From: Burkholderia ubonensis subsp. mesacidophila
Lineage (GTDB): Bacteria; Pseudomonadota; Gammaproteobacteria; Burkholderiales; Burkholderiaceae
Reading direction: 5' to 3'
Assembly: GCF_002097715.1 (NCBI RefSeq)
Contig: NZ_CP020737.1
Coordinates: 744,001-808,000, forward strand
DNA: 64,000 nt
This document shows, piece after piece, positions 39,412 through 42,314 of this stretch; within the stretch, counting starts at the first letter, position 1, and the number at the start of each line of letters is the position of its first letter. The notes beneath the pieces are model-generated. The model searched no databases. It saw only the letters and a program-made list of their open reading frames with translations, and was not told where the DNA came from. Both the position numbers and the translations under genes were made by a program.

Positions 39412-40485
39412 TCAGTTCCCGCTGCCGCGCGCGACGCGCCGCGCCTTGACGGATTCCGCGAGGCCTTCGAGCACCTTGACGCTGTCCTCCCAGGCGATGC
39501 ACGCATCGGTGATGCTCTGGCCGTAGGTCAGCGGGCAGCCTTCCTTCAGGTCCTGGCGGCCTTCGACGAGGTGCGACTCGACCATCACGCCGACGATGCG
39601 CTCGTCGCCCGCCGCGATCTGGTGGCCGATGTCCGCGCACACCGGAATCTGGTTCTCGTGCTTCTTCGAGCTGTTCGCGTGGCTCGCGTCGATCATCAGG
39701 CGCGCGGCGAGGCCGGCCTTGCCGATGTCCGCGCACGCGGCGTTCACGCTTTCCGCGTCGTAGTTCGGCGTCTTGCCGCCGCGCAGGATCACGTGGCAAT
39801 CCTCATTGCCGGCCGTCGACACGATCGCCGAGTGGCCGCCCTTCGTCACCGACAGGAAATGGTGCGGCTGCGACGCGGCCTTGATCGCGTCGACCGCGAT
39901 TTTCACGTTGCCGTCGGTGCCGTTCTTGAAGCCGACCGGGCAAGACAGCCCCGACGCCAGTTCGCGGTGCACCTGCGATTCGGTCGTGCGCGCGCCGATC
40001 GCGCCCCACGAGATCAGGTCCGCAATGTACTGCGGGCTGATCATGTCGAGGTATTCGGTCGCGGCCGGCAGCCCCATCTCGTTGATGTGCAGCAGCAGCT
40101 CGCGCGCGGTGCGCAGTCCTTCGTTGATCTTGAAGCTGTTGTCGAGGTGCGGATCGTTGATGAGCCCCTTCCAGCCGACCGTCGTGCGCGGCTTCTCGAA
40201 GTACACGCGCATCACGATTTCCAGCTCGTTCCTGAAGCGCTCGCGCTCCTTCACCAGCCGCCCCGCGTACTCCAGCGCCGCCTTCGTGTCGTGGATCGAG
40301 CACGGCCCGATCACGACGATCAGCCGGTCGTCCATCCCGTGCAGGATCCGGTGCATCGACTGCCGCGAGTTGTAGATCAGCTCGGACGCGGTTTCGGAGC
40401 ACGCGAACTCGCGGATCAGGTGGGCGGGCGGCGTCAGCTCCTTGAGTTCACGAATGCGGACATCGTCGGTATTGTGCGGGGGCAT
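39412..40485 (-). CDS. aroG: 3-deoxy-7-phosphoheptulonate (DAHP) synthase, class I AroG type
   Basis: A 357-residue enzyme that joins phosphoenolpyruvate and erythrose 4-phosphate at the entry to the shikimate pathway. Motifs: VVIGPCSIHDTKAALEYA, RVYFEKPRTTVGWKGLINDP, GARTTESQVHRELASGLSCPVGFKNGTDG and MIDASHANSSKKHENQ. Which aromatic amino acid inhibits the enzyme cannot be decided by eye. AAGGAG precedes the ATG. The 5' leader of about 250 nt carries an aromatic-residue leader peptide and an attenuator. Confidence 0.96.
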   Translation of the reverse strand: MPPHNTDDVRIRELKELTPPAHLIREFACSETASELIYNSRQSMHRILHGMDDRLIVVIGPCSIHDTKAALEYAGRLVKERERFRNELEIVMRVYFEKPRTTVGWKGLINDPHLDNSFKINEGLRTARELLLHINEMGLPAATEYLDMISPQYIADLISWGAIGARTTESQVHRELASGLSCPVGFKNGTDGNVKIAVDAIKAASQPHHFLSVTKGGHSAIVSTAGNEDCHVILRGGKTPNYDAESVNAACADIGKAGLAARLMIDASHANSSKKHENQIPVCADIGHQIAAGDERIVGVMVESHLVEGRQDLKEGCPLTYGQSITDACIAWEDSVKVLEGLAESVKARRVARGSGN

Positions 40486-40580
40486 GCTGTTTCTCCTTGA
40501 TAGGGCTAGCCGTTCGGTCAGTGCGCGTGCGGCAAATTCATCAGTTCGGGCAATTCAGTCGTTTCGGCAGGCGAAGGGCG

Positions 40581-40610
40581 AAAAAAAACCGCCGGGTTCG
40601 CCGGCGGTTT
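40581..40610 (-). terminator. Intrinsic terminator in the aroG leader (attenuator stem 3:4)
   Basis: On the minus strand AAACCGCCGG (40610-40601), loop CGAAC, CCGGCGGTTT (40595-40586) and a run of eight T ending at 40581. The stem is perfect over 10 bp. It lies 96 bp before the aroG start and 31 bp after the leader peptide stop, so its function must be to stop aroG transcription early when it forms. Confidence 0.93.
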
Positions 40611-40641
40611 TTCGGGAATTTTGGTTGCGCTTTACGCGCCA

Positions 40642-40707
40642 TCAACCCTCTCGATCCGCCAGCGGTCTGAGATGCCAAAAAAAGTAAAAGTAAAACTTGG
40701 CGGACAT
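40642..40707 (-). CDS. Aromatic-rich leader peptide of aroG
   Basis: A 21-codon frame from ATG 40707 to TGA 40642-40644. After MSAK come seven aromatic residues in a row, FYFYFFW (codons 5-11: four Phe, two Tyr, one Trp), then HLRPLADREG. Such a run is not expected by chance in GC-rich DNA, because TTT and TAC codons here contrast with the genome's usage. The Shine-Dalgarno site is weak. A promoter stands about 38 bp upstream and an alternative-structure terminator follows. Role: ribosome stalling sensor for Phe, Tyr and Trp tRNA charging. Confidence 0.85.
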   Translation of the reverse strand: MSAKFYFYFFWHLRPLADREG

Positions 40708-40744
40708 GGCGGAAAGTCGTTGCGTCAAAAAAGTTGATTCGGAA

Positions 40745-40773
40745 TTTATACCCGGTCGCCGGGCGGCTGGCAA
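40745..40773 (-). promoter_or_regulatory. Sigma-70-type promoter of the aroG leader transcript
   Basis: On the minus strand -35 TTGCCA (40773-40768), a 17-bp spacer, and -10 TATAAA (40750-40745) followed by T. Predicted start is near 40738, about 30 nt before the leader peptide ATG. Confidence 0.8.
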
Positions 40774-40795
40774 CCGGGGTCCGACGAAAATGCGG

Positions 40796-40831
40796 ACATT
40801 CCGCGCGTTTTTCACAAAATGCGCGGAATGT
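40796..40831 (-). terminator. Hairpin after tldD, possible terminator
   Basis: ACATTCCGCGC (40796-40806) pairs perfectly with GCGCGGAATGT (40821-40831) across a 14-nt loop, starting 17 bp after the tldD stop on the minus strand. The following CCGCATTTTCG has only four T. It would separate tldD from the aroG promoter. Confidence 0.45.
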
Positions 40832-40847
40832 CTGCGCGGCGATGCGG

Positions 40848-42314
40848 TTATGCCGTGCCGCCGACCGTCATCTTGTCGATCCGGAGGGTCGGCTGGCCGA
40901 CGCCGACCGGCACGCTCTGGCCTTCCTTGCCGCACACGCCGACGCCGGTGTCGAGCGACATGTCGTTGCCGATCATGCTCACGTACTTAAGCGACTCCGG
41001 GCCGCTGCCGATCAGCGTCGCGCCCTTGACCGGGTACGTGACCTTGCCGTTCTCGATCATGTAAGCCTCGGACGCCGAGAACACGAACTTGCCGTTCGTG
41101 ATGTCGACCTGGCCGCCGCCGAAGTTCACCGCGTACAGGCCGTTCTTCACCGACGCGATGATTTCCTGCGGGTCCTTGTCGCCGTTCAGCATGTAGGTGT
41201 TGGTCATGCGCGGCATCGGCAGCGCCGCATACGACTCGCGCCGCGCGTTGCCAGTGACGGGCATCTTCATCAGGCGCGCGTTCAGCGTGTCCTGGATATA
41301 GCCCTTCAGGATGCCGTCCTCGATCAGCGTCGTGCACTGCGTCGGGTTGCCTTCGTCGTCGATGTTGAGCGATCCGCGGCGGTTCGGCAGCGTGCCGTCG
41401 TCGACGACGGTCACGCCCTTTGCGGCGACCTGCTCGCCGATCCGGCCAGCGAACGCCGACGAACCCTTGCGGTTGAAGTCGCCCTCGAGACCGTGGCCGA
41501 TCGCCTCGTGCAGCAGCACGCCCGGCCAGCCCGGCCCGAGCACGACCGTCATCGCGCCGGCCGGCGCCGGGCGCGCATCGAGGTTCACGAGCGCCGCGTG
41601 CACCGCGTCGTCGACGTAGCGCGACAGCACGTCGTCGGTGAAGTAGCCGTAGTCGAAGCGGCCGCCGCCGCCGCCGGTGCCGATCTCGCGGCGGCCGTTC
41701 TGCTCGGCGATCACCGTCACCGACACGCGCACCAGCGGGCGGATGTCCGCCGCGAGCGCGCCGTCGCTGCGCGCGACGAGCACGACGTCGTATTCGCCCG
41801 CGAGGCCCGCCATCACCTGCGTGATGCGCGGGTCGCGGCCGCGCGCCATCTGCTCGATGCGCTCGAGCAGCTTGACCTTGGCCGTGGCGTCGAGCGACGT
41901 GAGCGGGTCGGACGGCAGGTACAGGTCGCGGCCCGAGATGCCCTTCAGCGACGTGGCCGCCTTGACCTTCTGCCGGCCGCCGCCCGCGGCCGCAATCGCC
42001 TTGGTGGCCGCGGCCGCCTGGGCGATCGCCTCGGGCGACAGGTCGTCGGAATACGCGAACGCGGTGCGGTCGCCCGCGACCGCGCGCACGCCGACGCCTT
42101 GGTCGATGCTGAAGCTGCCCGATTTGACGATGCCTTCCTCGAGGCTCCACGCTTCGCTGCGGGTCGCCTGGAAGTACAGGTCCGCGTAGTCGACGCGATG
42201 CGTGAAGATGTCGGCGATCGTGCGCGTCAGGAGGCTCTCGTCGAGGCCGTAGGGCGTGAGCAGGATGTCCTTCGCCAGCGCCAGGTTGCGGATGCCGGGT
42301 TCGATGATGTTCAT
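40848..42314 (-). CDS. tldD: TldD metalloprotease subunit
   Basis: A 488-residue protein of the TldD/PmbA family. Start at ATG 42314 (MNIIEPGIRNLALAKDILL). The zinc motif is HEAIGHGLEGD (HExxxH). Other marks: YADLYFQATRSEAWSLEEGIVKSGSFS near the front and VGVCGKEGQSVPVGVGQPTLRID at the end. TldD with TldE (PmbA) degrades unfolded peptides and matures some RiPPs such as microcin B17. TldE is not in this window. It is downstream of the nitrilase-like and yhdP genes. Confidence 0.95.
   Translation of the reverse strand: MNIIEPGIRNLALAKDILLTPYGLDESLLTRTIADIFTHRVDYADLYFQATRSEAWSLEEGIVKSGSFSIDQGVGVRAVAGDRTAFAYSDDLSPEAIAQAAAATKAIAAAGGGRQKVKAATSLKGISGRDLYLPSDPLTSLDATAKVKLLERIEQMARGRDPRITQVMAGLAGEYDVVLVARSDGALAADIRPLVRVSVTVIAEQNGRREIGTGGGGGRFDYGYFTDDVLSRYVDDAVHAALVNLDARPAPAGAMTVVLGPGWPGVLLHEAIGHGLEGDFNRKGSSAFAGRIGEQVAAKGVTVVDDGTLPNRRGSLNIDDEGNPTQCTTLIEDGILKGYIQDTLNARLMKMPVTGNARRESYAALPMPRMTNTYMLNGDKDPQEIIASVKNGLYAVNFGGGQVDITNGKFVFSASEAYMIENGKVTYPVKGATLIGSGPESLKYVSMIGNDMSLDTGVGVCGKEGQSVPVGVGQPTLRIDKMTVGGTA

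Follow-up and report, generated by a model that had tools for sequence, protein, structure and literature searches.

A candidate aromatic-codon attenuator upstream of the DAHP synthase gene aroG in Burkholderia and other proteobacteria

How is the DAHP synthase gene aroG controlled in Burkholderia? The DAHP synthases of E. coli are under the control of TyrR and TrpR, and we know of no comparable picture for Burkholderia and its relatives, Xanthomonas, or Bradyrhizobium. A Pfam PF01371 search of the Burkholderia ubonensis subsp. mesacidophila genome (G000) detected no TrpR, and the E. coli control was positive. Here we analyzed a stretch of 64,000 nucleotides of this genome (the window), in which aroG (39412..40485, minus strand; NCBIfam NF006723 AroG, 608 bits against a cut-off of 568) is separated by 362 bp from tldD, which ends at 40848. 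An initial annotation had proposed that this gap holds an attenuator of aroG.

All the parts named in that proposal were found, in order, in the minus-strand sequence. A sigma-70-like promoter is predicted at 40773–40745, with a -35 hexamer TTGCCA (40768..40773) and, after a 17-bp spacer, a -10 hexamer TATAAA (40745..40750); the predicted transcript start lies at about 40738. The leader peptide ORF MSAKFYFYFFWHLRPLADREG (40642..40707; 21 codons, ATG at 40707 to TGA at 40642) is conserved in relatives and forms the terminal part of a longer entry, 40642–40935, in the ORF list. Its codons 5–11 (40675..40695), TTT TAC TTT TAC TTT TTT TGG, encode FYFYFFW and would be the regulatory codons. Segment 1, TCCGCCA (RNA UCCGCCA; 40698..40704), is complementary to 40661–40655, and a second copy, UCCGCCA at 40707..40713, reaches the A of the leader ATG, pairs with segment 2 in the predicted fold, and reads UCCGUCA in most same-genus relatives. 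Segment 2, CGCTGGCGG (also written CGCUGGCGG; 40656..40664), can pair with segment 3, CCGCCGGCG (40599..40607), with one U-G in the helix, and segment 3 also lies in the stem (3:4) of an intrinsic terminator at 40581..40610, with segment 4, CCGGCGG, at 40595–40589 and eight T (U8) at 40588–40581. The terminated RNA is predicted to be ca. 155 nt long. From the end of the eight-T tract to aroG there are 95 bases, which include the Shine-Dalgarno sequence AAGGAG of aroG (40493..40498). Additionally, a 5' UTR segment, AUCAACUUUUUUGA (40725..40738), can pair with UCGAGAGGGUUGAU (40641..40654), which lengthens the 1:2 stem in the minimum-energy fold; the same pairing is seen in relatives.

Two further structures lie in the same gap. 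A small hairpin, GGUUGAUGGCGCGUAAAGCGCAACC (GGUU..GCGC GUAAA GCGC..AACC; 40623..40647, minus strand), sits in the 2:3 loop between segments 2 and 3; it is near-invariant in the 30 same-genus loci, and none was seen in the other genera examined for aroG leaders. Between tldD and the aroG promoter, a 44-base near-palindrome (ACATTCCGCGC...GCGCGGAATGT; 40792–40835) is also present in relatives, where it gives opposite-strand matches; it could serve as an operator or mark the end of tldD transcription.

Both the codon run and the fold of the leader exceed chance. Across all six frames of the window, FYFYFFW is the sole stretch in which at least 5 aromatic codons follow one another; among 300 windows simulated with a first-order Markov model, a run of at least 6 occurred in none and a run of 5 in one. 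The folding energy of 40738–40573 is -58.3 kcal/mol (z -3.8), and 0 of 200 shuffles were as good.

The same arrangement was found at aroG well beyond this strain. All 37 of the 37 same-genus genomes matched the aroG-upstream DNA, and the 30 same-genus loci that were fetched (own genome included) all encode MSAKFYFYFFW(H/Y)LRPLADREG, L107 having L at F5. Lack of conservation in close relatives had been named in advance as one of the outcomes that would refute the proposal; both the aromatic codons and the paired segments were kept. An aromatic leader with a terminator was present in 46 of 80 aroG loci of relatives, and carriers include Burkholderia, Paraburkholderia, Caballeronia, Trinickia, Cupriavidus, Janthinobacterium, Rugamonas, Massilia, and Bordetella, as well as Xanthomonas, Dyella, Stenotrophomonas (a MAG), and Bradyrhizobium. 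The design is therefore not peculiar to Burkholderia; other beta-, gamma-, and alphaproteobacterial genera have it too. No leader was found within 450 bases at loci of Pantoea, Dickeya, Erwinia, Serratia, Enterovibrio, Methylotenera, and Chromobacterium. The master set of leaders comprised 137 of the 177 loci offered (46/80 from relatives, 30/30 same-genus, 28/29 from the order sample, 30/35 from the phylum sample, L144, L181, and the window); it includes the window twice (also as L085) and some genomes twice, a duplication that is avoided by counting distinct peptides (96, or 95 where an AroG match in the same locus was required). The terminator filter dropped L032, L052, and L209, the first two of which do have an aromatic ORF. 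Two loci, L291 and L292, carry the leaders MSITSVYASRFYWYRCSQRMRVRA and MSTTSIYASRFYWYRCSQRMRVYA before aroG with AGCGG as segment 2 and form a divergent subtype. In Candidatus Burkholderia humilis (L016, 1326–1458), the frame shifts inside the aromatic stretch and then runs for 48 codons through the terminator, as if this attenuator were decaying.

To follow the element across genomes, a covariance model extending from the ATG to the U-tract was built on an alignment (A1) of 37 leaders, namely the window and 36 of 45 loci; L005, L006, L009, L011, L012, L014, L016, L027, and L039 were omitted as near-duplicates or oddly framed. In a sample of 200 genomes of the order, the model gave 46 full-length matches at E<1e-5 under stricter filters that lose weak matches, and all 46 lay 27–149 nt upstream of AroG on the same strand; AroG itself was located independently of the leader model, in 130 of the 200 genomes. 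Ten full-length matches at E 1e-5 to 0.002 were not near aroG, and a partial match in G348 lay 94 nt upstream of it. Among 398 genomes of the phylum, 53 had a match at E<=1e-5 under the same kind of stricter filters, and the downstream gene in the 47 matches checked (G630, G645, G753, G766, G776, and G771 left out) was aroG in 42, pheA in 2, pheS in 2, and neither in 1.

This linkage bears on the view that the short ORF and the terminator form a free-standing gene, for a small RNA or a small protein, whose place before aroG is a coincidence, with incidental read-through. A terminated RNA of the predicted size would suit such a gene, and the Sinorhizobium trp attenuator yields an RNA and a peptide that act in trans (PMC7298713). 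However, every one of the 46 order matches at E<1e-5 precedes aroG, and the 2:3 covariation given below serves an antiterminator; a role in trans would be additional rather than alternative. We consider the free-standing view very unlikely.

AroG does not need the leader, since 84 of the 130 order genomes with AroG had no full-length model match and direct reading of 20 of these 84 found no aromatic ORF with a terminator; L245, from this match-free set, has an ORF that begins with GTG and carries four aromatic residues in a stretch of eight, but it lacks a terminator. In a class sample of about one genome per family, AroG was matched in 125 of 185 genomes; the 60 loci that were read (the 59 best-ranked apart from the own genome, and a second copy in G167) included an aromatic ORF in 4 and a full-length model match in 3 (L125, L144, and L181), and L133 has an aromatic ORF with a TTG start and without a terminator.

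The own genome has one strong model match, the aroG leader (E 2.4e-25), followed by full-length matches at E 0.003 and 0.25, so that no regulon of leader copies is seen. No aromatic leader was found at the second DAHP synthase (L002), at the other two PF00793 members (L003 and L004), or at pheA (L305), and trpE (L300, named by NCBIfam) has no clear Trp leader, the ORF seen there being a weak one, MFLNKKRSLSSIDRGAWPWRRWSR. Searching the own genome by pattern for the segment 2/3 spacing was uninformative, with 435 + 486 matches on the two strands vs 641 + 647 in the backward control. A scan of viral contigs added nothing to the analysis.

We examined the RNA pairings on A1. Segments 2, 3, and 4 form a triad, CTGGCGG/CCGCCAG/CTGGCGG, in which segment 3 can pair with either of two competitors, the nearly identical segments 2 and 4. 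The 2:3 pairing was kept in 80.2% of cells, and both partners had changed in 13 cells, compared with 4.0 in shuffles and no more than 10 in slid versions. The 3:4 pairing was kept in 94.9%, and both partners had changed in 16 cells, compared with 3.7 in shuffles and no more than 4 in slid versions. For both pairings, the covariation score was reached by 0 of 500 shuffles, which do not keep relatedness, and was lower in all slid versions; the count of pairs with double-sided changes was within the shuffle range, being attained by 77 and 89 of 500 shuffles. The core GGCGG is almost constant, and the covariation therefore rests on the flanking columns. Matched changes across all three segments occur in L023, L025, L033, and L046; in the window, segments 3 and 4 are altered together and 2:3 is retained through the U-G pair.

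Such conservation is pertinent to a metabolite riboswitch or a protein-binding RNA for aromatic amino acids, in which the ORF would be incidental. That explanation would account for the strong fold and the terminator. In contrast, the invariant columns of A1 lie almost solely in segments 2–4 (mean column identity 55%), relatives retain the aromatic codons as well as the distance between these and segment 2, and Rfam, whose families include Trp and Phe leaders, gave 0 matches in the window at the gathering score. This possibility appears exceedingly remote to us.

The reading frame of segment 2 bears on a further alternative, nascent-peptide arrest, as known for the TnaC and erm leaders, in which the aromatic peptide itself would stall the ribosome and free ligand rather than tRNA charging would be sensed. 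The C-terminal PLADREG is near-invariant in Burkholderia-type relatives, as such arrest might demand. However, this stretch coincides with segment 2, whose core lies in frame 2 in 79 of the 96 distinct leader peptides, frame 1 in 9, and frame 0 in 5 (absent in 3). The DNA was thus kept despite a changed frame in 14 of 96 distinct peptides (frames 0 and 1), a count that includes L016, which looks like a shifted copy. Retention in all three leader frames indicates that segment 2 is conserved as RNA, not as peptide. The aromatic stretch, on the other hand, differs among leaders in order and composition, as expected for charge sensing. Arrest by the peptide is accordingly a highly improbable explanation of the leader.

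The 1:2 pairing fared less well than the other two. It forms a protector hairpin in the fold of the window but is weak across the set: 12 of 112 distinct regions (seven Burkholderiaceae-type and five alpha leaders) had p<0.05 against shuffles, 51 were below 0.2, and the mean z was -0.59, so support for segment 1 varies by lineage. The 5' UTR lengthens this hairpin in the genus and in Paraburkholderia L007. In the same-genus regions tested, it can pair with the end of the leader ORF over 12–14 bp without gaps. A helix of 12 bp persists in L007, where one A-U pair has become C-G by substitution of both bases and one U-G has also become C-G. This helix was not beyond chance in L193, L194, L008, L011, and L013–L018 (p 0.09 or more), and p was 0.065 in L012.

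The codons of the leader and their placement were compared among the distinct leaders. The aromatic stretch contains Phe in all 95, Tyr in 91, Trp in 60, and all three in 57; the mixture of all three aromatics noted for the window is thus shared by most but not all leaders, Trp being absent from the others. The last aromatic codon starts 8–22 nt before segment 2 in 96 of 96 distinct leaders (10–14 nt in 65) in a scan that required at least 6 nt between the two. A distance of 8–22 nt is about the reach of the leading edge of the ribosome. In the window, TTT was used for 4 of 4 leader Phe codons vs 1 of 41 in four window genes including aroG. The same preference held across loci, TTT making up 237 of 317 Phe codons in leader stretches vs 93 of 608 in the aroG genes that follow them, and the TTT share was higher in the leader than in its own aroG at 89 of 95 loci and lower at 5. 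Rare regulatory codons in a dense run raise sensitivity according to a published model (PMC1183508). An alternative reason for TTT is possible, namely U-richness that keeps the aromatic stretch unpaired.

The position of the predicted promoter differs among lineages. With regions grouped by peptide ending, a rough assignment in which L073 and L201 may be misfiled, the distance from the end of the best -10 to the leader ATG was 35–39 nt in 41 of 42 distinct Burkholderia-type regions, 6–9 nt in 28 of 43 regions of other beta- and gammaproteobacteria, 6–7 nt in 20 of 23 alphaproteobacterial regions, and 19–40 nt in 15 of 18 regions of the Oxalobacteraceae type. Shuffled regions showed no peak at 6–9 nt. 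A Shine-Dalgarno match of at least 4 bases preceded 3 of 109 distinct leaders vs 80 of 108 aroG genes. Translation of the leader must therefore start without a Shine-Dalgarno sequence, including in Burkholderia. A -10 abutting the ATG together with the missing Shine-Dalgarno sequence suggests that the leader mRNA is probably leaderless in alphaproteobacteria and many beta- and gammaproteobacteria.

Conservation, the covariation of 2:3 and 3:4, and linkage to aroG support the reading given at the outset as attenuation by ribosome stalling. The parts, their order, conservation, covariation, gene linkage, codon bias, and spacing are observed; promoter use, leader translation, stalling, and the starvation response are predicted from them. 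We assign a probability of roughly 0.9 to a ribosome-mediated transcription attenuator that would make transcription of aroG depend on how much charged aromatic tRNA is available. When Phe, Tyr, and Trp are ample, the ribosome would pass codons 5–11, reach the end of the ORF, and there cover segment 2; with segment 2 covered, or left to segment 1, 3:4 would form and transcription would terminate near 40581. When charged aromatic tRNA is short, the ribosome would stall in the aromatic stretch and leave segment 2 free to capture segment 3 while segment 4 is still to be transcribed, and the polymerase would continue into aroG. If translation is absent, the 5' UTR and segment 1 of Burkholderia-type leaders would hold segment 2, and aroG would stay off.

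We modeled these states by constrained folding with an assumed ribosome footprint of 19 nt back and 11 nt forward from the first base of the A-site codon. In the window with segment 4 not yet made, 2:3 stood at 0.82–1.00 when the ribosome was stalled, 0.00 when it had reached the stop codon, and 0.21 when there was none. The finished RNA of the window preferred 3:4 in every ribosome state, and antitermination would thus have to be kinetic in this model. In four of the eight lineages modeled (L024, L078, L284, and L045), 2:3 stood at 0.99–1.00 before segment 4 was made even with the ribosome at the stop codon, and in L080 it stood at 0.45; the off state in these five would therefore need more than simple occlusion. 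Without a ribosome, 2:3 stood at 1.00 in L024 and 0.99 in L284. For L007, the value was 0.00 when the ribosome was stalled on the final aromatic codon.

If this attenuator works as proposed, it would account for how the committed step of aromatic amino acid synthesis is controlled in Burkholderia and its relatives, Xanthomonas, and Bradyrhizobium. A broader interpretation, to which we give slightly less than an even chance, is that one widespread, mostly leaderless element of alpha-, beta-, and gammaproteobacteria pools Phe, Tyr, and Trp tRNAs as an OR-type signal at the shikimate entry and takes the part that TyrR and TrpR play in E. coli, with Trp mostly dropped in lineages such as Oxalobacteraceae; the terminated RNA and the peptide may in addition act in trans. 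The aroG leader would also provide a small, naturally occurring sensor that responds to each of the three aromatic amino acids, and it is a candidate for Rfam. Its many natural variants in stop position, 5' UTR, and codon set would make rules of attenuation testable by comparison.

In a full-text literature search, whose scope left out most subscription papers, no titles or abstract openings described an aroG attenuator in these groups. A comparative attenuator study reportedly published by Vitreschak and colleagues in 2004 could hold an aroG prediction. The main text of a Burkholderia cenocepacia start-site paper contains neither 'attenuat' nor a word beginning with 'aro' (PMC4603805), and that of a premature-terminator survey names no aro gene (PMC2965389); the supplementary tables of both could list the aroG leader RNA. 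At a DAHP synthase gene of another group, uORFC-13-1 before Acholeplasma aroF is a predicted Phe-codon leader with a terminator, and the same source restricts it to Acholeplasma and unidentified environmental sequences and refers to a 1980 paper hypothesizing attenuation of E. coli aroF (PMC8632094). Attenuation of DAHP synthase is thus not new as an idea, and the aroG leader element and its range appear new.

Among known systems, trpL-trpE(G) of Sinorhizobium and relatives has a leaderless leader ORF at the 5' end of the RNA (PMC7298713, PMC10117765). It shares the leaderlessness predicted for the aroG leaders of alphaproteobacteria and many beta- and gammaproteobacteria, and differs from them in that its codons are for Trp only, its target is trpE(G), and trans-acting products have been shown for trpL, where for the aroG leader they are a possibility. 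The aroG leader model also matched leaders before pheS (L294 and L295) and pheA (L293 and L296), the genes being named by NCBIfam. Attenuation of pheA and pheS is known in E. coli, and these matches indicate that the attenuators of aroG, pheA, and pheS share a common look. The enterobacterial attenuators pheL-pheA and pheM-pheST, of which L293–L296 are relatives, resemble the aroG leader in the short Phe/Tyr-rich ORF, the competing hairpins, and the U-tract terminator, and they are weak matches of the model. In contrast, they have other targets and are dominated by Phe, whereas in the aroG leader Phe is combined with Tyr and often with Trp, and the CTGGCGG/CCGCCAG/CTGGCGG triad is present. Finally, the ilvGMEDA and thr leaders of E. 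coli each encode one peptide in which the codons for more than one end product of a branched pathway are brought together; the aroG leader follows the same multi-product logic, with aromatic codons in place of branched-chain or threonine codons.
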